Assembly (NCBI GenBank): GCA_003415625.1
Contig: PYIU01000007.1
Span: forward strand, 2,914,001-2,978,000
DNA from: Aquanectria penicillioides
Taxonomy: Eukaryota; Ascomycota; Sordariomycetes; Hypocreales; Nectriaceae
Direction: 5' to 3'
DNA: 64,000 nucleotides
Each line of letters begins with the position of its first letter. Positions within the stretch are counted from its first letter, which is position 1. The notes beneath the pieces were generated by a model that ran no database searches, had not been told where the DNA came from, and saw only the letters and a program-made list of their open reading frames with translations. Shown here piece after piece: positions 4,147 to 63,229 of this stretch. Made by a program: the position numbers and the translations under genes.

Positions 4147-4488
4147 TCACAAGCCTCTATTCTCAACTTCCTTGACAAGGGACATTGACATCATTTGCCC
4201 GGAATATTGAACATTGGCCGACTTCTTGTCGTGTTGTTGAATTGAAATATCCATAACTGCGGCGTTGGGATTTTCGGTCGCGGCTGCTGCACGCTGAAGC
4301 AATCGATCTTGTAGAGAGGAGGTATCATAAATGAACAGAGATAACATCAAACCGCTGCTCCCCGGTCTAGACTCCTGTTAGCCAAGTATTTCTTTTGCTC
4401 GGTGGAGTTGAACTCAGAGGCGAATGGAAGCTGTCGGTAATACGCACATATCTTTGAGGACTGGATGCAGGGTAACAGGCGGCTCCAT
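4147..4488 (-). CDS. YDT-family miniprotein, copy 1 (two exons)
   Basis: Predicted 86-residue protein of unknown function. Exon 1 is 4448-4488 (ATG at 4488, starts MEPPVTLHPVLKD), the intron is 4367-4447 (81 nt, GTGCGT donor, CTAAC branch, TCTAG acceptor, phase 2), and exon 2 is 4147-4366. The core reads MLSLFIYDTSSLQDRLLQRAAA and begins exactly 19 nt after the acceptor, as in most sister copies. A long polar tail follows (Asn, Gln, Ser, Lys rich). Hydrophobic residues at core positions F-I and L-L, with charges between them, suggest a short amphipathic helix. There is no signal peptide or membrane span. A TTTAAA box at 4653-4658, 165 bp upstream of the ATG, may be the TATA element. The gene model is inferred from sequence only; the repeated architecture across copies is the main support. 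Confidence 0.75.
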
Positions 4489-7400
4489 GCTGGAAGGACG
4501 AATATACAACGGAGCCTGCGGACTGGACTGGAGGTAATAGTGTCGAAGAAGAGGCATATAAAGACGGCGAGACTTTGGTATTAATCTTGAGAGATGGTGG
4601 ACCATGTGAGAAAAGAGTATAACGAGCTAAGAAGATATGGGAGCGAGTCAGATTTAAACAGAACGAGGGGAGCATAGTTGGCACGCAATTTTGTGGGAAA
4701 AGGAAGCAAGCAGGAAAACGGGCAGAAAACGAGCTGACATCGAGCGTAAATCGTGCAGACGACGTGCAGTTTCCATTTCACTTGCAAAAACGGGCATCTG
4801 CGACTGTTTCCCAAGCTCCATGTCACATATCACAAAGTTGTGATTCGTCAACTGCTCGTCCGATGTCCCAAATCGGAGACACAAGGCCGCCTCTAAGGTT
4901 TTGCGGACTACTCTGGCAATTGCTCCACTGGGCGCTCTTAGCTGAACAACCAAGCAGAAGCGTCAGCCTCCAGGCACCCCAAACCTCCATCTCACCCATC
5001 CCAGGCTCATTGTCGACCCATGTCCACACCGTCATCTACGCGGCTGCCCAGCCTGACCGAGTCTTCCAGCCCGCATAACTACAACCCCCCACCCCCGCTA
5101 TTGATATCACCGCTGCCTCTGTCTGCCCTATGTCCCCGGAACTTGGCTGCATACTAGGCTGGTTGAGTGATTGTAATCCTGTCCAAAGCCGTATCTGGCT
5201 CCATTTTGGACAAATGTCGGAATTTGGTCGCTACCATATACGGAGCAAGCATCTGGATTACCCTCCTACCTAGAATTCCAGACCAATCACTAGGGAAATC
5301 GCCTGATAGCTTACAATGAAGCCACCTGGTAGCCACAAGATGCTTAGCTGCACTTGTGTATATCATGGTTAGAGAAGCGGGACTTTGCAGCTAAATGTAC
5401 ATTGGCAGTGTGTAGCTGTATTTCAGCCAGAGAACTTTGTTACACTCCGGCCAGCCCACAGGCGCCCATGGCCTGCCATAGCCTGGCACAGACTACCGTA
5501 GCCTGTCTACAGGCTCACCTGTACCTACACTAAGCGATACCACTCTAAAGTAAAAACTGAATTGCATGTAAAAAACCTCTGCTCAAGACAAGGATACGGA
5601 TACTAAACAGCGTACTTCCGAAGTAGCACATTTTCTACTCGATCATACTGTTTTTTTTTACTAATTTTTATGGGTTCCTACCATATTTTAGCACTACAAT
5701 TCTCAATAATTGGCCATAAAACATTGGTGACACACTATATGTAATATTTAAGCAAGATGGTCAACAGCACTCTCCGAGTTGGGTCAAGTTTTGCTGCCAT
5801 TCATCACTGTATTGCTGTCTCCGATCAGGAAACAGTATTATTATACTGCTATTGCGTCATAGTCACCATCTTTATATCATTTATATTAGACGCCAGGTGA
5901 AGATGGATTTGTTGTGAATATCTACGAGAAAGCTTTTGGCATTGTTTGTGGACCAGATACCTGCGTATCACCAAATCGATTACATGGATGGTCAAGCATT
6001 ACTAAATTCATCATGTGCTCTATCCATCGCCGCGGCGGCCTGTCTCCAGCTCCCGCGGCCGTGATGAAGCTTGAAGTGCGCACTGATCAAGCGGGCTTGA
6101 AGATGGCGAACTATTGCAAGTCCCGTGATGACCTGGTGTTTCAAGATTTAGTTGGTTTCCCATTTCCTCCAATCGGCTCGCCACTGCACGACCTAAAACT
6201 TAGTTACTGGCAATCTTCAGCATATGTGCTGAAATATATGGAAGAATGCACTTGACTACCGCATACAAACCAAGTTTGACTTAATTACGAAGGTGAACTG
6301 GACATTTTGATAGACCAAATTTCGATGGGTGCGGTTAGATTTCCTCAAGGCAGGTTTTTGCGTCATGGGTGACTGCATTGGCCCCGAGGCATTATTCGAT
6401 CACGTATTGCCGCCGAGAACACCGCAATGTTCTTGACCAAAGCGCGCTCTTCATTCCATCCACGCGTGGTGATATGTGATAGCAAGGGGCCAGATGTTAA
6501 CGATGAATAAAGATTCGTTGAACAGTTATGTTCCATTTTCTCAAGATAGTTACAATGGCGAAACGCTGGTACTGCTGTTAGTTCTGCACTTATCTCGCAG
6601 ATGGGGCAAATTCTCAATTAGTTCCTAAGCAATTTCACATGAAAGAGAATGACGTCAAAAGGCGAGAAAGAGTGATGAATTATCACTAGGATATGGCTCA
6701 TTAGCGAATTCTTGCTAGCTTCGCGACGCCATATCCACGCTGAGGATGATGAAATGGAGCGAGGTAATTGAAATACGAGATTTAAAGTGCACTAACTGAC
6801 TGCAACTGTACACTTGATAGCGTCCGGATTTACTAGCCCGTAGACAGTTTGCGGAAAAGCGTGGGATCTTAGCTGCCATTCAGAAACCGGGCGATTGAGG
6901 GCCAAATCTGTGATGCCAACACGAGCTGCGGGGATAGTGACTGCATATAGTCTATTCGAGCAAAGTGGACCTGGAGCTCGTAGTCAGCCTATTGCTGTTG
7001 GGTTGGTCCTGATTTAAGGCTCTGAGAGGGCCACGCGAGCTTTACGGCCCGGCCCTGGGCATCCTCTAGCCTTGTCCTGGCCTTGTCTGAATATCCGTCT
7101 TTGTGCTTGCGGCACCAATCACGCTCGCCCAGCACAACAAAGCTCCAATGTGCATTTCCAGCCTGACCCCGCAACAAAGTCATCTTGAGCTCCTGCATGG
7201 CTGGCTCTGGTGTGCTCCCGTGGGGCACAAGAAAGCTATTGTTGCTATTGGATGCCTGTGTATCTAACGCTGCCGTCCGGCTGATGCAAAAATAGATAAA
7301 GATGTTGATGCAAGCATGGGTTATTATGCTTGCACGGCACTTCTTGGTTCTCTGCAACCCCGACTCGGTACACCGAGCTTGCTCTACATTTTAAGTTAGG

Positions 7401-9454
7401 ATGAGACATTATTGAGATGTGCAAGCGGCTCGTCACACTTTCCTCTTGATTTTCGGTTTGACCATGGGGCCTATAAAGATGGCCGTCTGTGCCGGGCCAT
7501 ATGGGTCTTTGCATATTTGATATCGAGGATCTTCACTAGGTTTGCTTGCGAGCTTTATTTTTTGCCCGTTCTCGCTCAATTTATCGTGGCTACTGAAGAA
7601 ACCACCCGCTTCTCAAAATGAAGGCTCCTAGTGACTCGAACCAGAGAGCTAGGAACCATCATGGTTATGCTTGCCTCACCGACCACGGCCATTTTTCAAC
7701 CGTAATCTAGACCCGGAGATATGAGTCTAAGGCCGACACGGTTCATATTTGATATTTCCTCTCTTCCAGATCGCTTAGCTCAGGGCGCGAAGATAACCGG
7801 ACATAGAGCCCAGATTCCAACTCCCCCCCCCACGGACTCAAGAAAGAGAGGGGCGACTGGGACTTCGCGCGTAGTCGAAATTGAGTGCTATTGAGCACTT
7901 ATAAAAATGGGCCGTTTTATGGAGCACTACAAATGCCATGAATTGAAAAGGAAAAAGAGGCTAGAAGGAGGCAATGAAATGTCTAAGATGGAAGGATAAA
8001 AATAGATAACGTTGTTAAGTAACTGATCTAAGATACTAAGTTTTGGGTAATACTAGCCTTCGGCAGAATTCCGAGAGACCTTGCTGTTTCATGACATATT
8101 GGGAATCGCGATGAAATAATGGGCGTTGTGTGCAATGGATCAAGTGAGGCTGAAGAGTAGCTCAAGGAGAAGGAAACGTGATGAGAACGCGTAGTAACAA
8201 GAAACACACGGATAGGAAAAGGAAGAAGCGATAAGTTACATGGATTTAAGGCTTGTCGGTAGTCGATGAGATACCCAAACCCACGGACGCGGGGCTCATG
8301 GTGACGATGCCACCTGCATGCGTTTCGGCCTAGCTTGCGAGTAGCCCCCATTTCTTCGGTTCTGCTAGGGAAACTGCACTGCTTTGGATCTCCTAGAGAG
8401 CGCAAGAGGAGGCACATAACGGGAAGAGACCAAGCTAGTCCTCCTTTTGCCTTAGTGGTGTACATGATGCAGCTGAGCCGGCATCAGCTGGTTGGGCAAT
8501 CTGCCTCGGATCTTTGGTAAAGCTAGGAGAACAGAATCAAGCCATGTGCATGGTCGAGGCGACGACCTCAGTAGCTGCCATCTCTTGACTTTGCTCTGTA
8601 TCGTTCATAAATCCTACGACTGTGATGTTCATGGCAATGTGAGGCGGCGCTAACGGTGATAATCACATACTGGCAAGTAAAGGGCCGAATTGTGGTTATT
8701 CTTCTCCCAGGACTATTCACCATTTCTGCCTACGTACTAAGCTCTAAATGAGGCTGTATCATGGATGAAAAATTTTCTCTCCGGTTGCCTTGCCTAGTTC
8801 GCAAAATCTCTGCCCACCGAAGAGCAATTCAATCAGGCTGCACCTACATAGTGACCAAGCTAGTTCACTGTGCCGCAGCCAACGAAAGTCAATCTTTCCA
8901 AAGATTGCATCTCCGTGGAATTCCTCGACTACCTCCTAAGCATTTCAGGTAGTCTTTTAATGAATCCCGAGCTATCTCGAACCGGTTTCCTCGTTGTGTT
9001 TGCCATAGTACTGTCTCCGACATCATTTAGCAAGCTCCTTCATGGCTAATACACACCCAATTCAACCGGGAAGGGAAACATGCCATTTATGCCCCAATCT
9101 ATCTAGGTAAAATTTAGTGAGTAATGCGCAGCGGGCCAATTGGTGCCGCCGAATTTATCTAGTGGGCGTGCATGTCAATGCCTGCCAAAGACGCATCGCC
9201 AGTCTAACATGGCAGGCCAGTGAATGGCAAAGAAGTGGACTAATTCTGGAATTACACATTCACAGCATGTTATTCAGGAAGTAAATGAAAACTAAGTTAT
9301 GAAAGGTGAGATCAAGCCTCTTTTATCTTGGTACAAAATTAGGAACTAATCCAGCTGCGACCAAGTCCAAGGCAGTTCAACACGGGACCTCGTATGAAAC
9401 ACCAAGTAGTACCTTTCCAGACGTCCTTGCTCCAACGTGTGCTGTGATTGTCGT
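4489..9454. other. Gene-poor stretch, nothing convincing
   Basis: About 5 kb with only short frames (at most 145 codons), none with a recognisable domain. It is locally AT-rich near 5560-5900. GCCTG/AGGC-rich short repeats lie at 5450-5530, a C9 run near 7807, and a small inverted repeat (GGCTCCTAG with CTAGGAACC) at about 7622-7656. Confidence 0.4.
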
Positions 9455-9748
9455 TTAATGCTGATCCGGAAGTTGTATGCAATATTGACTTTTTGGTGCC
9501 GCCTGAGTCTCCATCTCCGAGCCAGGACCATTATTACTATCAGGAGGCTCCCCGGCTCCTTGAATCAAGCGATCTTGCAAGGATGAAGTGTCGTAAAGAA
9601 AGACGTCCAGCATAGAAGCGGTGCAGTGGCAGCTATAGAGCATGGGTTACCCATCAATCCATCTTTTAGGGGTGTGTAGAAGGGGATATTACCAACCACA
9701 ACAATCGTAGTCATCGGGTGCCTTTACGCCGACTGATGACAGCTTCAT
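9455..9748 (-). CDS. YDT-family miniprotein, copy 2 (two exons)
   Basis: Predicted 77-residue protein of unknown function. Exon 1 is 9693-9748 (MKLSSVGVKAPDDYDCCG), the intron is 9633-9692 (60 nt, GTAATA donor, TATAG acceptor, phase 2), and exon 2 is 9455-9632. The core MLDVFLYDTSSLQDRLIQGAG starts 19 nt after the acceptor. Around the splice junction the protein carries five cysteines in a cluster (CCGCCHC), which no other copy has and which could bind metal or form disulphides. The tail is polar and ends LPDQH. A TATA box (GTATAAAAG) lies at 9897-9905, about 150 bp upstream of the ATG. The GTAATA donor is weaker than those of the sister copies but keeps the conserved phase. Confidence 0.75.
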
Positions 9749-9896
9749 GTTGCGATGAGAGGCGATAGATCGATAGGGTTGGGAGAAAAGTCATGGAAGT
9801 TGCAGCAACCCTTATTCGGGATGAACGTGGAAATGACTGGGGAATAGCACGCAGAAGAGCCATGGCATTAGAACCGCTATAGCAGACGGGACCGGG

Positions 9897-14119: not shown

Positions 14120-14380
14120 TTATAGGTTCGACTCCTTCTTGCCCTGGGGCTGCGTGGCATCCAGGACAAGAGATCCCCCATTATCTGGTGAGATTGGCGC
14201 TCGTTGGATCAGACGGTCAGGTACGGAAGACATATCGTAAATGAATGCGGCTAGCATCGGAATGGTGTCTTTAGGCCTAGAAACCGAATGTTAGCATGCA
14301 TCGTTCCAATTGGATCGAGTTGGCAAGGCGGACAGGTCGAGGCGATGAGGCCTGGGTTCAGCGGGAGCAGCGAGCGGCAT
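14120..14380 (-). CDS. YDT-family miniprotein, copy 4 (weak donor)
   Basis: Predicted 67-residue protein of unknown function. Exon 2 (14120-14276) follows a perfect CTAAC branch point and TTTCTAG acceptor. The core MLAAFIYDMSSVPDRLIQRAP starts 19 nt downstream. The only first exon keeping phase 2 is 14334-14380 (starts MPLAAPAEPRPHRLDL), giving a 57-nt intron with a poor GTCCGC donor, so splicing may be impaired or the first exon may lie elsewhere. The tail (SPDNGGSLVLDATQPQGKKE) aligns with the tail of copy 8 (SADQDGPLVPDKPQDKKK), showing these two are close relatives beyond the core. Thr of YDT is replaced by Met. TTATAA at 14531-14536 lies about 150 bp upstream of the ATG. Confidence 0.6.
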
Positions 14381-28042: not shown

Positions 28043-28315
28043 TTAGAGATGCGAGAGCTCGCCAGCAAGGGGGTCGTTATGTTGCTCTGCGCTAGCGGCC
28101 CTTTGGATTAGGCGATCTTGCACCAGAGTTGTCGTGTCGTCGATGAGCCGGTTCAACGAGTAGCTGCTTCGAGGCTCCCTTGGAGACCATTAGCAACCAT
28201 ATTCTGATTCGCATCCGCTACCGAAGAAGGATCGCAGGAGGAAGGCTCACGAAGGCTGGCTAGTCGATGGTTGTTTGCCTGTGGAGGTGGGCTCACTGAC
28301 GGGAGTATGATCCAT
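28043..28315 (-). CDS. YDT-family miniprotein, copy 5 (two exons)
   Basis: Predicted 66-residue protein of unknown function. Exon 1 is 28251-28315 (starts MDHTPVSEPTSTGKQPSTSQ), the intron is 28179-28250 (72 nt, GTGAGC donor, GCTAATG branch, CCAAG acceptor, phase 2), and exon 2 is 28043-28178. The core is diverged: SLNRLIDDTTTLVQDRLIQRAA, with one extra residue before QDRLIQRAA and Tyr of YDT changed to Asp. The acceptor still lies exactly 19 nt before the position that aligns with the core methionine (here Ser). The tail is short (SAEQHNDPLAGELSHL). A TATA box (GTATAAAG) at 28484-28491 lies about 170 bp upstream, with a pyrimidine-rich leader between. The good splice signals and conserved spacing make this a likely functional, divergent member. 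Confidence 0.72.
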
Positions 28316-29130: not shown

Positions 29131-31220
29131 TCCCCGGAACTCCAGGAGGCCTTTGGGGCTGAGAGGCCAAATGGGCTTCTGATGGGGGTGTGCTTTCAGA
29201 GTGTCTCTTGGCGTGCTTTTAACCTGGTGGATGTTTTCTCCAGAGATCTCTATCGCACACAGTCATGGAGAAAATGTGGCCCGGTCCCTCCCCGCGCATC
29301 TGCACCGTTATATTTTGTCGCTTCATAGACCCTTATTCCAGCCTTGAAAGCAGTGCTTCATCGAGGGAGGTCTGTACAGTGACTGACCCGGCCTAATGGC
29401 TCTTTCGGGTGGTGGCGGATGATAAAGCAACCGGAACTGATGTCGAAGATTACCAAACAGTCAATCTGGAAGCCTCGGATTCGACCCTTCATTACTCAGC
29501 TGTGATCTTTGGATCTGTGATGGATGCGGCCACACCCACGCCCAGAGTGGGAGCAACTGCCAGACTCAGACGGCAACGGCCTGCTAAAGGGGGGGGGGGG
29601 GGGGAGGGCGTGCCGAAACGTCGTGGTTGTAGGAAAAATAAAATAAACAGGGGTGGAGGACAGCTCCCTGGCGCAGCAACGGCGCGGTGTGGGTGTCTTG
29701 CTGGAGGGACGCAGGAGTGCATCATCTCGTGAGACTCTGGCCAGTTTTTCCAGCGGCGGGCAATTTGGCAGAGAGTGGGGAGCCACCGACATCATGCTTG
29801 TGCCAGGGCACGGAGGCAAATCCGGATGAAATGAGGGAGATCTCCCAAGGCAGAGCGACCCATGGCCGAGATCTGCCAGGGCCATGTTCGTGGGGGGCGT
29901 GGAGGTCCTCAGTGGGCACACTCGTCGGACTCGGGTTCAAGAGTGAACGTAGCAACGAAGGGGGGTTCGAAAATGAATAAAATTTGCCCCTCTACTCCCG
30001 TGCAAAGGCACGGTCCAGGCCTAAATTACTTCAACCTCGAAATCAGAGTCAACCAGCTTGTGCTCCGTGCGCAGTGGTAGCAAGTTCAGACCTTGCTCTG
30101 CATTGATGCCTTTCCAGGCTGACGCAGTCATGGGATCAGGCAGCGGGACGCCGAACATGGAGCCTGACACCCACACAAACCAACCCGCACAAAATAAATC
30201 AAAAAATAAAAAGGAAAAAGGCTATGAAAATAAGGTCCCACGAACCGCTTTAGGCTTATTTGTCATCGCCTAGATTTAGGTAATTTATCGTTTATCTAAA
30301 TCAGCGCCATTAGGCCGTCGCTTCGAATCCCCGGTTTCTACTGAACCTATTCTTTCGACTTCAATTCAGCTGCAATATTCTTCACTACTTCATACGTTTT
30401 ATGGTAAATCAGCGGGCTGGAAACAACGAGGAGCCGGCAAGTCGGACCGCCTTGATACGAGGCCCATCAAAGTCGACGCAATCACGGCCAGGATCATCGC
30501 GGACTGCTCCTGGAAGGCCTAAATAGCTAGATTTATAATAATGATCCAAGAAGGAGCTGCTCGCAAGTTGCTTCACTCGCCTCAAGCAACGGTGTTGATG
30601 ACACAACTGCCCCAGAATACCTTTCATTGTGTGGACCATTGTCGATGAGCATAGATGCGGGGTTGCCTGATGTACCACACAGCCAGGTCTTAAAGATGAG
30701 ACAGTACTAAGAGTAGGTGTTAACTTGATGGTCTTGACCCATTTATTTCATCAATTCTCTAAACCATCCGCATCCGGCAGCACAAGCTCCACGCCGTTGT
30801 AACCACGGCCCGCCACGGGGACTAACCTAGGTCCCGTTGGCCCCATCCGGCCCCCCGCAAACTCAATCTTGACTCAGATGGTCAGCGAATGACAATCGAC
30901 AGCTACGTCTTTGTCTATTCCGTGCAAGATCTACCGTCAGCCCTTTGCGACGGGCATTCTACTTTGCTAGTCCTATGAGCATTCTCTCAAAGCTAGAAAA
31001 TGGAGGCTGAGCAATGCAATTGATGAGAGATTTGGACGGAGATTATGTAATCACAATGTTGCACATTTGCGCATTGAGGCACGCATGATTGGTAGCCTTA
31101 CTTCGTAGATACCACTCAAGCCTCAACCTTTGATGCCTGATCCCCGCATTGCGTTCTTTGCAACTCCCAACTTTCTACAGATATTTAAATGCGCCCAAAT
31201 CCTCATCCAAGTCCTTGGAA
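28650..31220. other. Intergenic, G-rich then ordinary; no gene recognised
   Basis: Frames of up to about 140 codons follow the G-rich composition and have no domain. A16-type poly-purine and A-rich DNA lies at 30180-30235. A small inverted repeat (GATTTAG with CTAAATC, 16-nt loop) lies near 30274-30303. The right end is the upstream region of the SesA-like NLR. Confidence 0.4.
29589..29604. repeat. G16 homopolymer
   Basis: Sixteen consecutive G residues; prone to length errors in sequencing. Confidence 0.85.
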
Positions 31221-34200
31221 ATGAGCGGCCTTGAAGTTCTTGGTGTGGTTGCCGCCATTCCTGGCCTCCTCACGATTGTCAAGGAGTCGATTAGGCTCAT
31301 CTATGCCTGCAGCAGCCAGAGCAAGTTTCTCAACGCCATAAAAGGCATCGACGTTCAACTAGAGGTCCTAAAAGATTTGCTTGTTCATCTTGAGAGTCGG
31401 TCAAAAAGGAAGAAATGGCCGTCTGACAAGTTTGTGGAAGTGGGTCAGGTCCTCGATCAACTGCGTATTGAGCTGGAGTCTCTCAATACGTTGCTAAACT
31501 CCGCGATTGCAGCTTCCACCAAAGGAGAGTTGAGGCTATTTAGACGTGCCAAACTGGCCCTCACCGGGTACGAAAGCCAACTTAAGGAAACGGTCCAACG
31601 GATAGAGCATCTCAAGTCGCTGCTTACACTGAAGCTAACCGATAGCATCCATGCTCGTCTTGAAGGTATGATATGACTGTCTTTAAACCTTTGCCGTATT
31701 TTAATACCCATCTAAAACCTGCTAGGAGATGTATCTGTTCAGCGAGCATCCTGTCGGTCTAAGATCAAGGGCCATTTGAAGCCATGCGTGATGAGCTTCA
31801 TCCCTCCGAAATTGCCAGAAACACTCCAATGGGTTCCATCACATACTCGGATAATTCAATGGATGAATCCGCAAGAGAGGGAAATTTCAACAAGAGGAAT
31901 ATGCATTTATGGTGTAAAAGGATGCGGTAAATCTGTTCTGGCGTCCAGTCTTGCTCACGACCTGTCAAGCCGAAAGACGCCTTCCGCCTTCTTTTCGTTC
32001 TGGGCCCAAAAGGAGAGCCAAAGGAGATCCACCCACATGTTGTCAACTCTCATATGGAATTTGCTATGGTACCTGACAGATGAGTTGTTTGACAAAATCG
32101 CGCCGACCATCATAGACTTGCCTGAGCTGGCCGATGTGGATCTCCTTCGGATCCTTAACGAGACACTGCAAAGCATCAGCGGAGATGTTTATTTGATCAT
32201 AGATGGACTAGACGAAAGCTTGGATGACTGGAACACCAGGTCAGAAGGTATCTTCAATGTCATCATCGACTTGCTTCAAGCCCACTCATCACTGCGAATT
32301 CTACTCCTGGGAAGAGAATCAGCCACTCGTGAGTGCCTGAAGACTTTGACTGGGATCGAAATTACAGAAGACTTGGTTCACGAGGACCTCCAACTACTCA
32401 TTTTAGAAGAACTGAGGAAATTGCCAAACATCAGCCCAGATCTTCAAACCCACATTCAGGACGTTCTTACTGAGAAGTCCACGGTCATGTTTCTCTGGGT
32501 AAAGCTCACATTCAAGGAACTACAAAGATGCTTCAGCGCGGCTGAAATCAAAGCGACACTAGCCAATCTCCCCCAAAGCTTAGAAGCAGAGTACCATCGA
32601 CTCTTCTCGCAACTCATCTCGAGGCTCGGAGGCAGAGTCAATAACGAACTGTCGGTCGGTGTCCAAAGAACCCAGAAGTTGCTTCAGCTGATCATCTGTG
32701 CTGCGGAACCGCTGACCCTTGATGAACTACGGCACGCGTACGCGGTTTCGTGTGCATCTGATCCAAACTGGATAGATTACATTCTCGGTGACGATGGGAT
32801 TATTGACTCATGTGGCGATTTTATCCATGTCTCTGATGGCCATGTGCACTTAGGACACAGCTCTGTCAATGAATATCTCACTCGAGAGCTCTCCGCTTGG
32901 CAGATGACACCTGACATTCAATGCCTTCGAATTGACCCCAAAGAAGGCCATGCCGAAATAGCAGCGACATGCATGAAGTACCTGAGAATTGTGGAGTGGA
33001 ACTCGGAAACTGAGAAAATACCAACACAGTTCCCATTTCTCAACTACGCACATTCACAATTCGTATTCCATCTCCTAGAGTCGAAGCTTGTTCCAATTGG
33101 CCTTGGCAAAGCCATAAACCCCTTTGTAGAGTCAGACCAGTTCTTCAATTGGGTTGAGTACGGGCTATTGCGTGCGTTTAGTGATCAGTATGGCTTGGAA
33201 CTCATCAGCTACAGCACGGATATGGCACAGCTGGCGCAATGGTACAATGATAGCTTGCCTGGAGAATCTCCCAACCCGTTTCTGTGGCGGCTTGGGGGAA
33301 TCTTGAGCGATGGGAAGCTGTACTAGGCTCAGGAGATCCCAAGACGCAGCTCTGGAGATTCATTGTGGCTTTCATCAAATACCTTCAGGATCCAGATACT
33401 GTGGCTCACGAAAGCAGTCAAAGATTATCTTCTTCAAATACGAAATCGGTCTCTGAGCTCAACGGCACAAACAATGCTACTAGGAGTCGGTTAATACGAC
33501 CAAAAGACTACTCAACTGTCACTGATCTTGGCAGTCAACTTTTGTCAGAATATTCAACCACTGGGATCGTCCTATCGTCTATGGGGCTTGGAAAACCTAG
33601 GCTTGAGACCTGGCTCCCGAATCCAGATGATATCATTTTCGACATGATATACAAGGCTGCAAGCAAGTTACCAATCGCTGTGCTTGTATTATTTGTCATG
33701 CACCTCGTCTCCAAACATAAGCATATACTGGCTAAAAGGCTATGTGAAATTGCCGCAAACAGAGTCGACGGCAAAAATAACTTTTATGAAGGCTTGTGCA
33801 TGATGTCGATGGGAGAAATTCACCAAATGGAGCTGCAGCCTCGGCAGGCAATCCAATATTTTCGACGAGCCGAGGGAATTTTCGAGCTTTCGCCGTCTAA
33901 GCTGGCGACTGAGGCCAGTTTGAGAGCTTCTGCAGGCTTGATTAGAAATTTATTTGGCATAAATGAGGAAAAACCCGACACAGAGGCTCTAGAAAAAGCT
34001 AATAAAGTTCTAAGCTTGGCTGTCTCTCAACACGGTAGCTCGCGGAAAAGTCGGATGAAATGGGATACCTATGTTCAGAAGACACCATTTTGGGCATTGA
34101 ATCAAATCACTTGCTGGTATAACATCGCAGTGAGTCTATGCGACAAAAACCATCTTGAAGTTGCTCTCAAAGTTTTAGAGTGGTCGCTAAAACTTTCTGA

Positions 34201-35727: not shown

Positions 35728-36016
35728 CTAGTCCCTGACATTGTGACATGCCACACGTTCACTTCGACCGGATGATTCCGAAACAGTGGTACAACGGTCA
35801 TCGATATCGCTTTCGGTTAACCCAAGCTGGATTAAACGGCCCTGAAGGTGGGATGTATCGTAGATGAATACAGCAAGCATATAACTATTGCTCTGATAAG
35901 GCCTGAATAAATAAAAGAGGGGCGTGTCAGTGATTCTTCATCACTCAACCTGGACAGACACGAACGAACTTGCAGTGGCCATCAGCTTCAGGTTCGAGGG
36001 CTTTTGCAGCATCCAT
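35728..36016 (-). CDS. YDT-family miniprotein, copy 6 (two exons)
   Basis: Predicted 73-residue protein of unknown function. Exon 1 is 35970-36016 (MDAAKALEPEADGHC), the intron is 35903-35969 (67 nt, GTTCGT donor, CTGAC branch, TTCAG acceptor, phase 2), and exon 2 is 35728-35902. The core reads MLAVFIYDTSHLQGRLIQLG, with the D of DRL replaced by G. The lead between acceptor and core is 22 nt, one codon longer than usual. The tail (LTESDIDDRCTTVSESSGRS...) is acidic then basic. TATAATA at 36154-36160 lies about 140 bp upstream. Its stop codon is only 35 bp from the stop of the convergent NLR gene at 35692, so their 3' untranslated regions must overlap. This could give antisense effects or may reflect co-inheritance of the pair. 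Confidence 0.75.
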
Positions 36017-37982: not shown

Positions 37983-38283
37983 CTAATTTGCACGGACAGA
38001 ACCCCCTTTCTGGCTGTGACTCGGATAGACATCCATCGTGTACGAGTTCGTCTTGGTACTCGTATTCTTATGCAGAGACTGGTCTTCATCCGCCGAGGTT
38101 GCCGCCCTCTGTGTCAAACGATCTTGGAGAGACGAAGTGTCGTAGATGAACCGAACAGATAATCGTTCTGCTCATCCTTAAAAGCTATGAGTATCCTTTG
38201 TCCAATAAAGAAGAGGAATGAAGAGAAGGACAAGCTTACGGGGTGTCTTTGGCCAGAGCCTAGAAAGGACACGTAGATGACAT
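37983..38283 (-). pseudogene. YDT-family member, copy 7 (probably decayed)
   Basis: The core VRFIYDTSSLQDRLTQRAAT and its tail (SADEDQSLHKNTSTKTNSY...) are open down to the stop at 37983. The upstream half is damaged. The natural first exon (ATG at 38283, MSSTCPF then an in-frame TAG) reaches a good GTAAGC donor in phase 2. The CATAG acceptor 22 nt before the core position fits phase 2, but TAA and TGA follow in frame. Other acceptors (GATGAG or GAGCAG) would give an open second exon, but only from a first exon read in another phase that has no nearby ATG. A TATA box (GTTATAAAG) at 38432-38440 lies 150 bp upstream of that ATG as in the intact copies. It is most likely a recent pseudogene or carries base errors. 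Confidence 0.55.
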
Positions 38284-41605: not shown

Positions 41606-41877
41606 TCAATTCTTAGAGTTCTTTTTCTTGTCTTGCGGTTTATCCGGAACGAGAGGCCCATCTTGGTCAGCAGAGTGTGCTGCTGCCCTCTGAATCAAAC
41701 GGTCTTGGACAGAAGAAGTATCGTAGACGAGCAAAGTCAACATATAGAGACAATTTTCACCCCTAAGGAGCCATGAGCATTCTCTCTCCTTGATTTCATT
41801 AATTGGCAAAGCGGGATAGAAGGCCAAACTCACTTGGTGTCTCCACATGGGAACTCAGAAGGACTGGTAGACTTCAT
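41606..41877 (-). CDS. YDT-family miniprotein, copy 8 (two exons)
   Basis: Predicted 66-residue protein of unknown function. Exon 1 is 41834-41877 (MKSTSPSEFPCGDT), the intron is 41763-41833 (71 nt, consensus GTGAGT donor, CCTTAG acceptor, phase 2), and exon 2 is 41606-41762. Nineteen nucleotides after the acceptor comes MLTLLVYDTSSVQDRLIQRAAA, then a tail ending in a lysine-rich PQDKKKNSKN. The tail aligns with that of copy 4 (S-D-G-LV-D-PQ-KK pattern). Two cysteines flank the splice junction (FPCGD and GENCLY). A TATA box (CTATAAAG) at 42031-42038 lies about 155 bp upstream. Without the intron the second exon would look like an 80-residue frame starting MWRHQ, but that start overlaps the donor site and is not supported by the sister copies. 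Confidence 0.78.
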
Positions 41878-43936: not shown

Positions 43937-46900
43937 CTACAAATATTGACAAGCCCGCTTTGCGTCTCCTGCAAATTCCCTGGTAGGATCAATCGATCGC
44001 TGCCGCTTTCTTGTACCACTAGCCCTGTACCCTTCATATTTGCCCTGTGACGCAATATGCCCTTTCTCATCGTTAATCTCCTCGCCGCCATTGGTTTCAA
44101 GCTCGTCCTCACTACCATCATTACTATAGTCTTCAAAGTCATACTCCTCTTCAGATTCCTGCATAATGCATGAAACCATTTCCGCTTCATTCCGCTTTTG
44201 GTACATTTTCAGCAATTCAAGTGTTCTTTGCCTCTCAGGAACACTGAACTTGGTCATTATGAGCTGCTCCAAGTCTAGCCCGCTCGGTTCTACATCCGCA
44301 CCAGTATTTAAAAATGCCTCCACGGTTGTCAAAACGGATAGCTGTTCCTCGGGCACACTGCCCAGTTCTTGGGACCTTTGTATTCTTTCTTTCAGCCACA
44401 TAGTCCACCACGTCCCATGGCCGCCTGGCAGGATCTCATTTGCATTGCAACCCGTTTGAAGCAGCAGCCTAACCATGTCATCAGAAGCATGTCTCCTCCG
44501 CCATGATTCCAGAAGGTGTGCTCGATGCATGTCGGCATGGAGGAGAGATTCGGCTGGGATGGTAAACTTGGAAATGGGCATGCAGTAACATAAAGAGCTC
44601 GCCTCAACGAGAGCTAATAAGCTCGAGTTTTCTTTAAGATAGTTAACTGCTCCTGACTCAACTGCAAGTATGAGGCTGAGGTGCAAGGATATCTGGCTTG
44701 GCACCTCCTTGTGAGCCTCGAGAAAGGCGGATGCTTGAGAAGACCGGAGCAGCAGGCTGCGACATTCCAGGTTGTCGAGGACTGGTTGCATCATCCAGAA
44801 AATGTTGCTTTTACTCAAAGGCAATGCATGGTCTGCTTCTGACCCCCAACTAAACCCATCACACATGAGACGAAGGACTTGGCCATCAAGTGGATCTTGA
44901 AGAGCAACGCTCTGCATAGCTAGGTGCAAGTTCCCCAATGACATGGCCGTCGCGGCATCGAATTCGTCGTCAGGCATCTTGAGGCAGTTCAGCTCCCAGA
45001 CTTTCTGGTTGCTCAAGAACTCAAACACAGTACGGTGCATAAAGGATACCTTGGAATCAATCCATCCGTCATGGCCAACCTCCCCTATTGCGCCGATGCA
45101 GAAGCATTGAGTCGAGTCGCTTTCCAGTACGGTCGCCTTGATAACTTCAAGAAGACCGCCGCACCGACTTCTAAGCCGGCCATCAAGGTCTTCGCACAGT
45201 TCTCGTTTCGTTTCTTCGGATAATCTTTGGACGGGCATAGGGTCGAGGTGATAATCGCCCGCCAACGCCAGCCCAAGTGCTGGCATTTCCTTCACTCTGG
45301 ACCAAGTTCGCGCTTCCTGTTGTGCGTAACATATTCGTAGAAGCCGGGCAGCCTGCTCTCTGTGACGCTGATTAACCCGGCTGAGCATGTGTTGGAACAT
45401 GTCTTCGAGCTCTGGAGGCAACTCGTCCACCCGGTGGCGAAGTTCCGATATCCTGTCGTAGTCGGCGAAACCGGAAAGGAGAGACCGGCAAGCGAGAACA
45501 ACCCATAGGAAAACACCTGAAGCTTTATCAACGACGTCTGCCATAATCTGTGTCGCCCCTTCCGGGTCCCGCCCTATTAGTTTCTTCATGTAATTGTTGC
45601 CGCCGATGACGTTTTCTACATAGGCTGACATATCTGCCCTTGTGAGGTCCTGAAGTTGAAGCATCGGCAGGCCACTGAAACCAGCCACACATTCCGGAAT
45701 CGGTCGACTTGAAGCTATGATTTTAATGCGAGGGTTAACGGCAAGCATCTTGATAAATGCTATCCCATGCTTGTAATCACCAACATACTCGTCGAGACCA
45801 TCAATGAACAAACAAAACTTCCCTATGCTGTGCGCCTTCGAGATGACTTCAAAAGCATGCTTTGATTCAGCAGGGGATGGAGGGATGATGTTGTCATGGG
45901 CATCGTATGCCTCCTTCCACATTTCAGGAAGAGCATCGGAGATGAGAGATTGGTGTTTTGAGAGGATATGGTATAAGAGTGCTCTTGAGAGCCCTTCCTG
46001 GGTGTTTTGCTCAGGAGTACCGAGATACCAAAAGAAAAAGTCACCGACAGTGCACCCCTCTTCTCCAGCCCATTCAGAAAGGAGCTCTGTTTTCTTCGGT
46101 GAGTTGAACAGATATTTCATCAGCGTTGACTTTCCGCTCCCTGCTTTGCCCGAGACCCAGTAAATGCCGTTGTGGGCTCGTAGCCATTCCGACAGGTCAT
46201 CCCACGAGCCAATCGGCTCCAGAGACCAGTGGAAGGTTTCTTCATGCGCTTCCAGAATGCTTTCCCTGCGGTCGTTTATTTTTCTGAACCAGAGCGATTT
46301 CAGGATTTGCTTCTCGCAGCGGGTGTGGATAGCTTCTTGGGCAGATTTGGCGATGCTGTTGTGATGATCCGATGATGCCTCAAAGACCATTCTGAGATGA
46401 TTGACATCTTGTATCTGTCTTAGGTCTTGGCTGGCTATGACGTTCAAATCTCTTGCCTGCTCATCGAGCCTAGGTGGGACGATTTCTTTTTAGTTTTGTT
46501 GTAAAGTGAGCCAACTCGGCCACCAAATCCCCAAACTTTTGTTTGTCTCGGATGACCCATCGAGCTTTTTCTCGAACAGAAGGCCCCGCTTGACTTCTCT
46601 TGATGCCAATTTCTAGAGCTTGGAACTTGCTAAGGAATCTTTTTAGGGAAGGACCGCTCATCGCTGGGGCCTCATCTTCATGGTCGGACCAGGGCTCGTC
46701 GTCCAGCCCATACCGCTGTCTCAGCTGCGAGGCATCACTGAGTAGCAGCCGGATGCATTCTAGGATCTGGATGACTGAATTTTGGATTTCATGCTGATCT
46801 AGCCGGTTGTCGTGATCATCCTGAAGGAGGCGGACTTGCTCAGCCCATTGCAGAAGAATGAACTTCTCGACATCGAGCTTTGTTGCGAGAATGACAAAGT

Positions 46901-47006
46901 CACGTCTGAGATTGCGCGAGGCTGCGAACAGTTCGAATAAATCGATGGCATCCTTGAAGGCGCCCACGATACCGACGACGCCAATGACCAGACCGGCAAC
47001 TTCCAT
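43937..47006 (-). CDS. HeLo-NACHT NLR (STAND) protein, one frameshift
   Basis: Fungal NLR with a HeLo cell-death execution domain; 1022 residues if the frame is joined. It starts at 47006 (MEVAGLVIGVVGIVGAFKDAIDLFELF, a typical HeLo start), and LATKLDVEKFILLQW and the arginine-rich helix that follows also match HeLo. NACHT carries Walker A GKAGSGKS at about 286-293 and Walker B FCLFIDGLDE at about 397-406. The C-terminal third has no WD or clear ankyrin repeats that I can see; it ends in an acidic stretch (ESEEEYDFEDYSNDGSED) and a basic RKRQRS. The two halves are in different frames: in the A-run read on the minus strand (46487-46491) there is one A too many, after which KEIVPPRLDEQARDL would continue in the NACHT frame. 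Removing one base makes the total length divisible by three. HeLo domains form membrane-damaging assemblies on activation in HET-S and relatives, so loss by frameshift would silence the receptor. Confidence 0.85.
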
Positions 47007-47234
47007 GTCCCCTTGGGATTTGGGCTGACAGAGTGTCTGGATCTGTTGCTGGAACAAGGAAGCCTGGCAAGTAGATCCAGTTGCGCTATTTCAACCATGG
47101 CCAACAGCCTATAAAACCAGTCGATTCGATAAGTCAGCAGAAGGGAGAGATTATTGTGGCTCAGCAAGCCACAGTTGGCAAATCCTTCGGAGTATCAAGC
47201 GTAGAGATGCGCGAGCGGATCTTCAATTAAATTC

Positions 47235-48608: not shown

Positions 48609-51600
48609 CTAGAACTTCGACCAGCGCAAAAGGACTGCCGCAGCAATGACGGGCAGGACACTGACGAGTTCTCCCAGCCCGGCAAACTCGGGCGGAATTC
48701 TTGCCTTTTGGAGCGCTCCAGAGGCGAGCAGGATCGCAAAGGTATTGTAGACGAAACTCCAGCCAAAGTTAAACTTGATACGGTTCACTGAAGACTTGCT
48801 GGCGTTCATCATGGTGATGATCCCGGACAAGGCCGGCCGCATGAGAACAACATCTGCAGCTGACTGCGCGATGTCGGTGCCTTCGTTCATGTGAACACCA
48901 ATGGTAGCTTGAGCCAGTGCCACTGCATCATTGGTTCCATCACCGCAAAAGATGACGACGGGTTTATTTTCACTTTTTCCGTCGCTCTGCAGATCTTGAA
49001 TGTAGTCCTTCTTGTCAGCAGGGGAACTGCGGGATCGAACGTTTTCAATGGGTATTCCTAGTTTTGCGGCAACCTTTTGGACAGCACCTTCATCATCGCC
49101 AGATACAATGTGGACAGATGCACCTCGCATCTGGAGTGATGAGATGGTGTCGGCGGCATCAGGTCGGATCTCGTCATCGAGGCCATAGACGGCCATCAGG
49201 GCACCGTTGACAGTAAAACAGAGTACAGTATGGCCTTGGGTCAACATCGGCCCCACCACAGGGTGTGAGGAGAAGCCTAGCCAGCGGGCATTGCCAGCTC
49301 TCAAAATTTGGCCAGATGCTGTAGTTTCCACTCCTCTTCCTGTAAGGCTCTTCGGTGCTGGTACAGGAGATAATTTGACGCCCTGGCTTTTGAGATGAGT
49401 GGCGACTGCGACGGAAACAGGATGTCGACTATCCTTGACCAAACCCAAGAGCAAAGAAACGGAGGATCCATCTCCTAGAAGCTGTTCTGCATTCACCGAA
49501 AGATTTCCTCGTGTTAAAGTTCCAGTCTTGTCAAAAACGACGTGCGAAGACTTGTATGCAATCTCGATAGCATCGGCAGACTTGAAAATCACCCCTCGCT
49601 CTGCTGCAGCGCCACTGGCAATCACAATAACCATGGGTACGGCGAGGCCGATTGCGCAGGGGCATGAAACAATCAGAACCGTTATGGCGTACGTAATTGC
49701 TTCGACTGTCGCCTTTGATCCCCCTTGGTATCGGACAGCCACACCCACTGCAATCCACACACAAAAGGTGACGATAGTCAGGCAGACTACGACCGGGACG
49801 AAATAAGACGCGACGCGATCTGCCAAGTTCTGCATCTTTGGCTTTGACAGCTTAGCCTCGTCAACCATGGCTGCGATGGCGTTGATGGTATTGTCACTGG
49901 GCAAACGTGCGAGGCTGATGACTAGCACACCTGGTCCGTTGACCGAGCCGGCAATTACAACTGACTTGGGATATTTCTCGACTGGCCGAGACTCTCCCGT
50001 AATCATTGCCTCGTCGACTTCAGATGAGCCCGTTATGACAGTACCGTCAGTTGGGATCCTGGTATCGGGGAGAACCTTGAAGACGTCGCCGTATTGCAAC
50101 AGTCTGGTATCAATCTCTCGCTCGGAACCATCCCGGTCGATGAGAATGGCAGTCGAAGCTTGAAGGGATCGAACGGAGATGGATTCAACGGCTCTCTGGC
50201 GGGCAAGCGCTGCAACATAGCGTCCAACCATAATCAGAGACACGAGAAGGGTGCTAGTCTCAAAGAATTGGCCCGTTGAGAGTGGCTTGCCGGTCATGAG
50301 ATAGCCATACGAGACAACTGAGAATATGTACGCCGCGCTGGTGCTCAGCACGATCAAAAGGTCCATCTCAATGACCCGAGAAAAAACCAGTGCCTTTAGG
50401 GCCTTCGGATAGAATGGGCCTGCAATGACCACCTGAACAATTGTAGCTAGGGCGAGAGAGGCAGAAACGTACGCAGTTTTTCGTTCGGGTATCGGTGCCC
50501 ATGCCATAACGAGTACGGGGATGGTCAGCACTGCGGAAAGCAGCGTCATGTATCCCATCTCGCGAACATGTTTACTGCCGGCCTCGAAAGACGGATCACC
50601 GCGGAGGGGAGCAAGTATAGCGGGGTTTTCCCAGCCCTTGTCCATGAGATCACGAGCGCCAACAACCTTGGGGTCGTAAGTGACTTGAACTATGTTCTTC
50701 TCGACGATGGAAATTTCCGTCACTCCTTCTGGCCACTTCCGGTTGATCATGTCCAATGGGTCCCCTGGCGCAATAACGTCGATGCTAGTGCCCTTGGTTG
50801 TGATTCGGCTGCATTTAAACTCGGTGGTTCGCTCCAGATGTTTCATGACCTCATCGACAGAGCCGAGGCGCAGATCAAGGTTGAACTCAGCCCTGGAGAG
50901 CACCAGACTAGTCTTGAGATTCTTGACAGCCGGGACCGTGCCGAGTGTTCTGTTGAGCTTAGTTTCGCATCCAGTACAAGTCATTCCAGAGATACTCAGA
51001 ACAACCCGTTCGTTTCCATTAACTTGCTTTTCCAAGTCTTGTAGAGAGGCGAGTGGGACTGCATCCTTCAGGGCAGCTGGCTTCTCAGAGGAGCAACACG
51101 CATTAGAGCAAGAGTCACTTGTAACGTCGACTTTCTTCATCTCACAGAAGCTATCCACGCATGGCTTTAGGTCTGAAGTAATGACTTCAGTTTTGGGGGT
51201 TTCGGAGTCAGAGCAACACTTGGCTCGGGTCTCGGTGGGCTTCGGCTTACAACATCCATCAGAGCAAGAACTTTTTGGACTCTCGGCAGGCTTGGGCTCG
51301 CAACAGTCACTAGAACAAGCCGTAGGACTCTCGACGGGCTTCGGTTTGCAACAGCCGTCATTGCAATTATTGTCCAATGCAAGCTTCGGCTTCGTATTCC
51401 CGGAACAGCAGTCAGGAGACTCGTTTACCGCCGACCTTGTCTCGCAACAATCACTAGATGGTTCTTTCTTAGCGTCGACCGGCGGAGAGCCGCAACAAGA
51501 GTCGGTGCAGCCCAGCTCTTTTGGCGAGATCTCGGGCATTAGGTCGTTAGAACAACAGCCCTTTGAGAAGGGGTCTTTGGGAATGGCGACTTCTTTCACC

Positions 51601-52575
51601 TCACAGCAGGATTTGGCGCAGGTCGGCTTCAAGTCGGATAGTGGAATCGTGTCTTGCCCTGTACCAGAGCAGCAACCACTTTCCTTCGGGTTGTGATAGA
51701 CATTGATGTCCTCAGTCTTGGGAATATCCAAGGGGCTTGGAGTTGAAGGCTTGGATTTGGCACAAGCTGGCTTTGGTGCACAACAAGAGCTAGAACAAGC
51801 TTTGTCCGGTCCCTTTTTGACGACTGGCACATTGCCTTTGTCGACAGCGGTACAACAAGGCTTGGAGCATGCAACGCCCGGCGCTTTATCCACAGAGCTA
51901 GATCCAGAACCCTTTCGTGACCTAACTCTTGTCTTTGTGACGGGGCGGTGAGTGTCCGAGCCCGAGGAGAATGAGTCAAACGACGACCGAAGAAGTGACT
52001 TGGTGGACGATTTCTTGTAGTTCCGCTTCTTTTCAATGCATGGCCGTGATTTAGTCTCGCAACAAGACTCCAAGCCAAGAGCTAGAAGCGCGCGGCAAAT
52101 GCAACCGATGGCCTCGAGCGTCGTTCCATAGCGTTCAACCGTGAAGCTGCGATGCTGATGGCATGCTTGACCATCAACTACGCCGGTGCAGCACGAGCTA
52201 GGTCCTTGGACTGCTATTTGTTAGCCAATTGCATCTGTAGAACGGGCATCTCAGTAATTTACAGTCCGGCGTGTCTCCGGCGTTGGATGGGTTGCTTTGG
52301 CCGCATTCGCGCAGGGCAAGACGGTCCAGACAAGAAACGTCGCAGCAGGGAGATTGCTTGCCGCGGCAACAGTCGGGCACTTCGGTGTCGTCCGATGCTG
52401 TATCGTCTTCGCAATCGTTGGCGGCACAACAATCGTCAGGCGTTTCCTGGGGCCGCGCCTCTGAAGGACCGATGAGCTCAGGCACCGCCGCGCTAATCTC
52501 GCCGTAACCGCCTAACTCGCTGGAATGCGGTGGTGGAGCCACCTCTGCCGGCGGGCCACAGCAGTCGCACCCCAT
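48609..52575 (-). CDS. Copper-exporting P1B-type ATPase, CrpA-like
   Basis: Predicted 1305-residue heavy-metal pump that moves Cu(I) across a membrane using ATP; fungal relatives give copper tolerance. Exon 1 is 52263-52575 (MGCDCCGPP...), the intron is 52214-52262 (49 nt, GTAAAT donor, CTAAC branch, AATAG acceptor, phase 1; a CAG three bases later could be used instead), and exon 2 is 48609-52213. The N-terminus holds many paired cysteines ([32 protein letters not shown], repeated [20 protein letters not shown] units) that should bind metal. One HMA domain with GMTCTGC lies at about 514-519. The core has transmembrane helices, TGES at about 840, CPC at about 954, DKTGT at about 996, an HP motif near 1032 and GDGTND near 1194. 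Everything needed for activity is present and the frame is clean, unlike the two NLR genes next to it. No copper-sensing promoter site was identified with confidence. Confidence 0.95.
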
Positions 52576-53626: not shown

Positions 53627-53910
53627 TTATTCAAGCTCAATAGTTGAATCTGTGTTGTCATCCTGGGTTTCTTTGGTGCTCGGGGTCGCGGGCTGGTTGG
53701 TCTTGGCTACGACTGTGCCCGCAGCTTGAACCAAGCGATCGGACAAGTTAGTAGTGTCGTAGAGGAATCGCGCCAGCATCGGATTTTCACACTTGGGGCT
53801 GAATTATTGATAGACTTGTCAATCTTTCCCTGTTTTGGTAATGAACGGAACAGAGCAAAGACTCACGACTTGTTGCCACCAGTTGATATGGAATCAGTTT
53901 GGGATGCCAT
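53627..53910 (-). CDS. YDT-family miniprotein, copy 9 (two exons)
   Basis: Predicted 71-residue protein of unknown function. Exon 1 is 53867-53910 (MASQTDSISTGGNK), the intron is 53799-53866 (68 nt, consensus GTGAGT donor, TTCAG acceptor, phase 2), and exon 2 is 53627-53798. After a 19-nt lead (PKCENP) comes the core MLARFLYDTTNLSDRLVQAAG. The tail (KTNQPATPSTKETQDDNTDS...) is rich in Thr, Asp and Gln. Exon 1 is clearly related to that of copy 10 (M-SQT-S--S-TGG), so homology extends beyond the core into the first exon. No clear TATA box was found at the usual distance. Confidence 0.8.
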
Positions 53911-56534: not shown

Positions 56535-56793
56535 TCAAATTTTTGGCCTTGTGTCATTATTTTGGGCTTTTTTCAGGTCGGAGGCCCCGGCGGCGGCGCG
56601 CTGAATCAGACGGTCTTGAAGGCCGGAGGTGTCATAAATGAACTGCTCCATCATCGAGCCACCCTTGTCATGGCTATGTATATGGTTATTATGACAATCT
56701 TCCCTTGACGACAGTGGTGTAGGGTAATGAATCGAATGAGACGTACGAGCCATAGCCTCCTGTGGTGGAGCTAGATGAGGTTTGGGACTCCAT
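56535..56793 (-). CDS. YDT-family miniprotein, copy 10 (two exons)
   Basis: Predicted 61-residue protein of unknown function, the shortest member. Exon 1 is 56747-56793 (MESQTSSSSTTGGYG), the intron is 56674-56746 (73 nt, GTACGT donor, ACATAG acceptor, phase 2), and exon 2 is 56535-56673. After a 19-nt lead the core reads MMEQFIYDTSGLQDRLIQRAAA, followed by a short tail (GASDLKKAQNNDTRPKI). The first exon matches that of copy 9. A strong TATA box (CTATATAAAAGG) at 56971-56982 lies about 180 bp upstream. Read without splicing, the frame opens at an internal start (MARTSHS), which is intron sequence under this model. Confidence 0.8.
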
Positions 56794-61475: not shown

Positions 61476-62971
61476 ATGGGCCATCTAGATTGAGACAATA
61501 CGGGATCATTTAAGAGGCGGATCCGAGGCGAATGCTCATCTTCATCTCGAAGGTGTATGGGACAGGTCGTGACAGATTATATTTATTTTCGGTAATACAA
61601 GTATTAGTTTTCAAAATCAATGGATCTATCTGAGAAGAAATAAAACAAAATGAGGAGTAGATTTAAGCATCGATGCTGGCAGTTTCTAGTTTTAGCTATT
61701 CCCATCCATGTAATTTTGGTAGTTGAAAAGTGCAGATTTTTATCGTATTTAGGAGTATATGCGTCGTGGGAAATGCAGCCTCACTCCGCCTGCCCCCTGA
61801 GCCTATGTGTTCAGTTGTTGGTTCTCAGGGGCAGCAAAAGGATTTCCGATTGTCTTTAGAAGCGGATTCTGTGAGATATAATTGTTTGCATTACCGCATA
61901 CGAGCTGTCATATCTTTGTCTCATTTTTTCTACTCCGCCCATCCGCTTTCCGGCTCTCACGTGGATAGCCACATGGTTTGATCCCGCGATGTCAATGTCT
62001 TGGACTCATGTCCCCGGGCTTTTAAAAGTTCGGTCAAATCGATAAACCGACCCGCAAATCCGCAGGATACGGTGATGTAAATGTTGGGAGAATTGTGTGA
62101 CGCGATACCAGGCGACATGTCTTGAACGCAAAAAGGCCTGAAATTCTTCAGTGGGTGTGAGAATGTAGCCGTCAAGTATCAGCCTCGTGTCGTAATGGCA
62201 ACGAACGGGTGAACGCTGCCGCACAGAGCCCACAGACATTCCAGAGCACGCGCCCCAGGTCTCGGCATGTGCTGAAGCCGTCGTGGATTCTTTGATGGCA
62301 TCCAGTTGGTTATCGGGGTTTCCTGGTCTCGGTCTAGGGAGCGCCAGGTGCTTCCCCGAGCGTCGCAGTTCTCACGGTCCGTGGGAGGTCGATCGCATGG
62401 CATTGTTGACCGATGTGACAAATTTCAAAGTACCTGATGAGAATTTCCCTTTGATCAATATCCTTCGGACATTTTTTATTTCTTTTTACGTAGAATTATT
62501 CCAAGTAGGATGATGGTGAAGTAAAGTCTGGATATATTCCCATTGAACACGAAATTCTATGTCTCCGAACGACAAGCCATTTTATTATCGTCCAAGTCTC
62601 ATCACAGTCCAATCTTTCACTTCGGAAAATTTGAATCTAAAGAAGCAACAAATGACTTGGTAGATCGAGATACAAGATCCACCAGGCCGAAGTGAAGGAA
62701 TAACCCGCACCAGACCTCACGCCCCTCGTTGACCTTTAATCCGTCAAGTCGTACAGCAGTAGCTCATAATTGACGATGACATTATGCCCAAATTATCAAC
62801 ACTTAAAACTATTAGCCATCTATACCGTGTCCTATTCGCCCCATCCGCCCAGGTTCCAACAACCAACCCATTGACACCTGAACCGAACTGTGGTGACTTC
62901 TCATCAGGTGACCCAATACGCGATATTGGCTGACCGTCGGGTCGAGGTTCAAAGTCGTCTTGAGTTTATTC

Positions 62972-63229
62972 TCATGCCTTTGGGGTACCCTTGGTATTTG
63001 TACCTGCTTTGTTCTTGGGCTGTGTTTTCTCGGTGGAAGTCGGCCACTGAGCATCTGTCTTTTTCGGTAGCGCTTGAAGAAGTCGATCTTGGATGGGTGA
63101 AGCGTCATAGATTAACCAGGAAAGAAGATAACTTCTTCTTTACCAGCTGCTTAACTGTTAGTATCTTTACTTCCCCTTGTAGTACGCCATAGATAGAGTG
63201 AGGGTGGCATACGGCGTATCCCCGTTCAT
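62972..63229 (-). pseudogene. YDT-family member, copy 11 (stop at exon junction)
   Basis: Exon 1 would be 63213-63229 (MNGDT), the intron 63147-63212 (66 nt, GTATGC donor, ACTAACAG branch, AGCAG acceptor, phase 2) and exon 2 62972-63146. The lead is again 19 nt and the core reads LLSWLIYDASPIQDRLLQALP, with a Lys/Thr/Asn-rich tail (KNKAGTNTKGTPKA). With this acceptor the second codon of exon 2 is TAA (63140-63142). Using AAAG or AAG acceptors a few bases on would skip the stop and stay in phase, so the copy may still work. TTATAA at 63345-63350 lies about 115 bp upstream. Core Met is replaced by Leu and Thr by Ala, in keeping with relaxed constraint. Confidence 0.55.

Follow-up and report, generated by a model that had tools for sequence, protein, structure and literature searches.

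The YDT miniprotein genes of the window

The window analysed here, a stretch of 64,000 nucleotides from Aquanectria penicillioides (contig C11, positions 2914001–2978000, in a host genome of 53.8 Mb on 13 contigs), contains eleven copies of a short gene family that we refer to as the YDT family. It is a genuine, amplified, two-exon miniprotein family with the core consensus ML..FIYDTSSLQDRLIQ and variable polar ends, apparently undescribed; none of the titles listed in searches of the open-licence PubMed Central (PMC) literature describes it. With the core peptide as query, a search of the plus and minus strands of the window (BLOSUM62 scoring, five shuffled cores as control) yielded eleven places with scores of 40–80, the next place scoring 27 and the maxima for the shuffled cores lying at 24–28. 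Ten copies are located on the minus strand, with the core phenylalanine at 4335, 9601, 14245, 28144, 35868, 38150, 41731, 53767, 56642 and 63115, and the eleventh on the plus strand, with its core at 7742. A preliminary description of this DNA had arrived at the same total and at ten of these positions, but its 12.4 kb member was wrong and is rejected here, the best core score across 11.9–12.9 kb being 15 and hence under chance level, and it had overlooked the plus-strand copy at 7.7 kb.

Exon models were obtained with our own scoring script rather than a gene predictor, and several copies permit alternative models. Reading along the minus strand, the gene at 4147–4488 (exon 1 4448–4488, exon 2 4147–4366) encodes 86 residues ending in RGL, the gene at 9455–9748 (exon 1 9693–9748, exon 2 9455–9632) encodes 77 residues, and the gene at 14120–14380 (exon 1 14334–14380, exon 2 14120–14276), with the weak donor GTCCGC, encodes 67 residues ending in SNL. 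The gene at 28043–28315 (exon 1 28251–28315, exon 2 28043–28178) has a diverged core, uses an AAG acceptor at −34 and gives 66 residues ending in SHL; the acceptor also stands at −34 in the gene at 35728–36016 (exon 1 35970–36016, exon 2 35728–35902; 73 residues). They are followed by genes at 41606–41877 (exon 1 41834–41877, exon 2 41606–41762; 66 residues), at 53627–53910 (exon 1 53867–53910, exon 2 53627–53798; 71 residues; donor GTGAGT, acceptor CAG) and at 56535–56793 (exon 1 56747–56793, exon 2 56535–56673; 61 residues ending in PKI). Three further copies are less regular. The plus-strand copy at 7711–7894 has an exon 2 with the AG at −31, for which no clean exon 1 was found; the minus-strand copy at 37983–38171, a possible pseudogene, combines an intact core with in-frame stops in the expected standard exons, a longer open model being possible via a different acceptor; and the minus-strand copy at 62972–63139, also with an intact core, carries a stop right behind the standard acceptor and is disrupted or otherwise spliced. 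The two-exon layout of 60–90 residues given in the preliminary description hence holds for eight of the eleven window copies (61–86 residues) and fails for those at 7.7, 38.1 and 63.1 kb, which lack a standard-acceptor model.

The YDT family runs past the window on both sides. A protein search of the whole genome together with a profile search across the 184 kb surrounding the window delineated an array on C11 of 16 copies over ~86 kb, with core positions from 2894759 to 2980350 and 15 of the 16 copies on the minus strand. Four copies outside the array are located on three other contigs (one on C6, two on C10, one on C3), where the C3 copy and the second C10 copy, separated from its neighbour by 5.5 kb, surfaced with further queries; the genome total is at least 20 copies in a search that scores only the best candidates. 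The C10 copies, at 1444312 and 1449836 on the minus strand, form a tandem diverged pair with similar tails ending in QKL and RKL, near ArgJ, an APC-like TPR gene and an ankyrin gene. Adjoining the left side of the window, a block of ~12 kb at C11 2902001–2914000 with a GC content of 0.16–0.23 and TA/AT values of 1.3–1.4 divides the miniprotein array; we take these values to be typical of repeats mutated by repeat-induced point mutation (RIP).

Evidence for coding and splicing

A splice-acceptor AG exactly 31 nucleotides before the core-phenylalanine codon was present in 15 of the 20 copies, compared with a mean of 1.15 and a maximum of 6 copies at other offsets (binomial p ~3e-15); the offset had been spotted before it was tested, and the excess is far larger than that choice explains. 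Complete two-exon models were obtained for 14 of the 18 copies found first, each with an exon 1 of 14–65 nucleotides, a phase-2 intron of 52–82 nucleotides and an exon 2 comprising the core and a polar tail, and the second C10 copy exhibits the same structure (59 and 56 nucleotides). In all, 15 of the 20 copies retain two readable exons around a phase-2 intron, with varying donors and genome models spanning 55–112 residues. For the other five no clean standard model was found; two of them contain stops in the expected exons, one of these having a longer open alternative. The two-exon models are further supported by residues of exon 1, for example TGG, that align with the annotated gene models of the relatives P0002 and P0068. 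As regards a signal peptide, the exon-1 residues are polar, with no long hydrophobic stretch as judged by eye.

The core codons are under purifying selection. For 14 of the 16 array copies, the two carrying an inserted codon having been left out, the sums over all pairs gave a ratio of nonsynonymous to synonymous differences per site (pN/pS) in the core of 0.20 at a pS of 0.83; the corresponding tail value of 0.90 is uninformative, as unrelated tails were compared ungapped. When 2.7 kb of sequence surrounding each of the 16 array copies was compared in the same orientation, only 31–77 bp at the core were common, beyond the overlap of neighbouring stretches. This lack of shared flanks speaks against an origin as a recent repeat or transposon and is suggestive of an old array. 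Taken together, the AG at −31, the constrained core codons and the unrelated flanks identify the YDT copies as genes.

A possible second family co-amplified with the array was considered and rejected: the six-frame search gave 82 similar pairs at E ≤ 1e-3, 66 of them with the core by pattern, and the others were diverged or antisense core frames, two AT-rich repeats, a pair formed by NLR genes (coding for NOD-like receptors) and a few weak matches. Upstream of the genes, TCTCTCA occurs in 7 of 12 stretches compared with at most 6 in 30 block shuffles, and its role as a common upstream element is unproven.

Relatives in other fungi

Whereas the single-sequence homologue search returned no relatives, profile searches at E ≤ 1 yielded 39 proteins with a profile of 14 models and 102 with a profile of 30 sequences, together 105, of which P0104 and P0105 are the two with E above 1e-3. 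The family is thus not confined to this genome, an outcome that the preliminary description had still left open. The relatives were clustered at 90% identity, so that copies may be hidden, and are not mutually independent. All 105 are annotated "hypothetical" and are without a precomputed Pfam domain. Those with a named organism belong to Fusarium/Neocosmospora (the majority to Fusarium), Cylindrodendrum and Stylonectria, all Nectriaceae, and to Cercophora newfieldiana of the Sordariales. The presumed lineage-specific amplification may accordingly apply to the size of the array, while the family itself extends across the Nectriaceae with at least one member in the Sordariales. Clusters are also evident in other species from their locus tags, for example CEP54_001989, 001990, 001991, 001993 and 001994.

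The earlier observation that no named domain is recognisable is borne out by the database searches. In Pfam-A none of 14 models matched at E ≤ 1, and for 55 of the 105 relatives three single weak matches were obtained (best E 0.024), with none at E ≤ 0.001; a search of the PDB gave no match for the family. Two relatives have unusual models: P0001 (Fusarium albosuccineum FALBO_5255), with 171 residues and two cores, probably represents two adjacent genes merged in the annotation, and P0020 (F. solani MRS44_010556) is closely related to the paralogues ending in AKL yet itself ends in AKP, so that it may recently have lost the signal described below.

A carboxy-terminal PTS1 tripeptide in part of the family

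The chain ends of a subset of the family conform to a peroxisomal targeting signal type 1 (PTS1), defined here strictly as a carboxy-terminal [SAC][KRH][LM], a pattern that permits 18 tripeptides. Among the relatives, 25 of 105 ended in a strict PTS1 (SKL 14, AKL 7, ARL 3, SRL 1), where 0.14 would be expected from the 5 of 3675 internal tripeptides fitting the pattern. Shifting the pattern inward by one, two or three residues left 0 of 105, and after reduction to 60% identity 8 of 42 relatives retained the signal. By subtype, it was found in 24 of 46 LQ-type proteins (LQ, VQ or similar after YDTSS), in 1 of 58 of the FS-type and not in the single unclassified sequence.

For the genome copies, a strict PTS1 was present in 3 of the 18 tested; 5000 shuffles gave 0.05 on average and at most 3. 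The three are, in window coordinates, AKL at −19.2 kb (the array end), SKL at −12.9 kb and SHL at 28.1 kb; the two copies added later, one on C10 ending in RKL and one on C3 ending in QRR, fail the strict pattern and bring the count to 3 of 20. A looser terminal pattern that adds SNL, SRV, AQL and PKI, and that was picked after viewing the ends, is matched by 8 of the 18 copies versus 0.21 expected. Excerpts of a published study give SNL and ARI as targeting ends in Ustilago maydis (PMC9133605).

Named assemblies with a single hit carried a strict PTS1 in 7 of 14 cases, namely F. avenaceum (twice), F. pseudograminearum, F. torulosum, F. flagelliforme, F. sarcochroum and Fusarium sp. MPI-SDFR-AT-0072. 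The non-strict ends were ASK in F. zealandicum, AKF in F. nematophilum, VDK in F. oligoseptatum and EDK in F. solani-melongenae, and, in other genera, WGE in Cylindrodendrum, QVG in Stylonectria and YSL in Cercophora. Of the 18 assemblies in which two or more members cluster, 10 hold a member with a strict PTS1 and 8 hold none, and in nine of the ten a PTS1 member stands at an end of the detected run, which is trivial for two runs of two. Owing to the clustering of hits at 90% identity, some of the missing signals may belong to hidden copies.

NLR genes within the array

Two NLR genes are located inside the array. The first, a NACHT-TPR gene at 31134–35692 on the plus strand, is divided between two overlapping frames that carry NACHT and the TPR repeats, indicating an intron or a frame break. 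The second, at 43937–47090 on the minus strand, encodes a HeLo-NACHT protein (HeLo E 1.7e-45; NPHP3_N; DUF7791), an NLR class tied to fungal incompatibility. The window also contains a metal P-type ATPase gene at 48609–52220 on the minus strand, whose product has an HMA domain of the PCA1 type and a long amino-terminal region rich in cysteine, with many CC pairs.

Proposed function and alternative explanations

Judging from sequence, we tentatively favour a peroxisomal function, at a confidence slightly short of an even chance: PTS1 members would be imported by Pex5, their core would bind a partner, and paralogues without the signal would be cytosolic or piggybacked, making the family a peroxisomal adaptor or regulator and not an enzyme. 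The miniproteins would be synthesised in the cytosol, where Pex5 would recognise the PTS1, as the tripeptides suggest, and import them into the peroxisome matrix. The PTS1-bearing form would be old, at least within Fusarium. The core, set in a chain that is disordered elsewhere, might conceivably act as a binding motif gripping a partner protein or fellow family members, and PTS1-less paralogues could reach the matrix on a PTS1-bearing subunit. The AlphaFold model of P0055 has a mean predicted local distance difference test (pLDDT) score of 56.5 and a single helix at residues 36–49, which starts within the core's second half. A chain that looks disordered yet keeps a conserved motif of ~20 residues would fit a binding peptide better than an enzyme.

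Several observations weigh against this proposal. As 15 of the 18 tested genome copies and the 57 other FS-type relatives have no strict PTS1, peroxisomal targeting cannot cover the whole family, and the sole strict copy of the window, at 28.1 kb, is the one whose core diverges most. An ancestral PTS1 is made less credible by the 7 of 14 single-hit and 8 of 18 clustered assemblies without it, and the PTS1 counts come from relatives that are not independent of one another. The P0055 model reveals no fold, the putative binding role of the core is deduced from conservation and apparent disorder, and among the few neighbours scanned no gene was common to the four loci as a partner candidate. We regard as unlikely a more elaborate version, in which the miniproteins would be peroxisomal addressing adaptors sharing a binding core and bearing the label on some members, so that the make-up of the array would determine the choice and the amount of partner carried into peroxisomes by piggyback, with label-less members as competitors or cytosolic retainers.

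The KL ending could alternatively be a different terminal motif, such as a degron or a ligand of a peptide-binding domain, on cytosolic or nuclear proteins. We consider this rather unlikely: the terminus may matter otherwise, since many members share other recurrent ends (VDK in the FS-type, PKI, QKL, RKL), but the strict set holds only SKL, AKL, ARL and SRL out of the 18 tripeptides allowed, and the preceding residue varies (A, D, G, I, K, M, R, S, V). SKL, AKL, ARL and SRL are the range expected of a PTS1. The preliminary description had instead raised a role in non-self recognition or as NLR partners, that is a diversifying system whose miniproteins act as ligands, guards or triggers of adjacent NLRs. 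The two NLR genes inside the array speak for it, as do the C3 copy, which has a HET gene unusually close at 1.5 kb (a proximity shared by 3% of the contig), and the C6 copy, whose distance to such a gene is 5.5 kb (a proximity shared by 4% of the contig and 18% of its neighbourhood). Such genes are, however, common in this genome, with at least 122 NPHP3_N matches and at least 150 scored HET matches, and 11% of equal-sized (87-kb) stretches of C11 equal the array in containing two or more listed NLR/HET genes. The C10 pair has no listed NLR/HET gene within 287 kb, and the core-like motif is absent from the window NLRs in whole-window scans of both strands. The share of the 500-kb neighbourhood that is as near to an NLR/HET gene as the copy itself amounted to 3% for C3, 18% for C6 and 85% and 84% for C10. 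The association is weak and not supported beyond chance, and we consider this role quite improbable.

It is also doubtful that the array represents a relic in decay, left by an old family that was amplified without selection and now consists mostly of non-functional copies. Although five of the 20 copies are without a clean two-exon model and two show in-frame stops where exons are expected, the core pN/pS is as low as 0.20 while synonymous sites are nearly saturated, and the remaining 15 retain their readable model with the phase-2 intron. That the cores belong to a transposon or another mobile element has next to no likelihood. The dispersal over four contigs and the AT-rich, RIP-like block beside the window would fit such an origin, but the array copies share only the 31–77 bp at the core. 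A transposon origin was therefore rejected in the absence of a larger common element around the 16 copies, and neither the unrelated flanks nor Pfam, which gave no transposon domain for the family, point to the transposon-protein or low-complexity match that the preliminary description had contemplated.

The peroxisomal proposal makes an otherwise unknown function directly testable, namely by asking whether the miniprotein enters peroxisomes, and with whom. What is new is a readable organelle address in part of a recurring, amplified family without a Pfam model. The paralogues with and without the signal form a natural comparison series and, should the proposal hold, small and seemingly non-enzymatic proteins would extend the catalogue of peroxisomal proteins in a fungal group of economic importance.

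Comparison with known systems

Fungal amyloid-signalling motifs, ~21 residues long, occur in NLRs and their effectors. The YDT proteins resemble this scheme in their conserved core of ~20 residues, their short length and the NLRs nearby, but differ from it in that the core finds no match in the window NLRs and is charged and, in a low-confidence model, partly helical, and a PTS1 ending is foreign to it. With PTS1 matrix proteins imported by Pex5 the family shares the SKL, AKL, ARL and SRL ends of 25 of the 105 relatives and the AKL, SKL and SHL ends of 3 of the 18 genome copies; unlike them, the YDT models are short (55–112 residues), disordered-looking and devoid of a known enzyme domain, with many signal-less paralogues. 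Piggyback import is an established peroxisomal process, for which excerpts of a published article name CCS–SOD1 and LDHBx–LDHA/B as natural pairs (PMC4680570). The likeness to these pairs lies in a PTS1-bearing form that exists alongside related PTS1-less forms, whereas the YDT forms are separate genes of an array and are not known to interact physically. Further counterparts are uncharacterised Fusarium hypothetical proteins such as HYE68_002523, KAF25_004397 and CEP54_001994, which are assigned to the family by profile and are like the YDT copies in core and layout; the Fusarium clusters comprise 2–5 members among the matches listed, compared with 16 in the C11 array.

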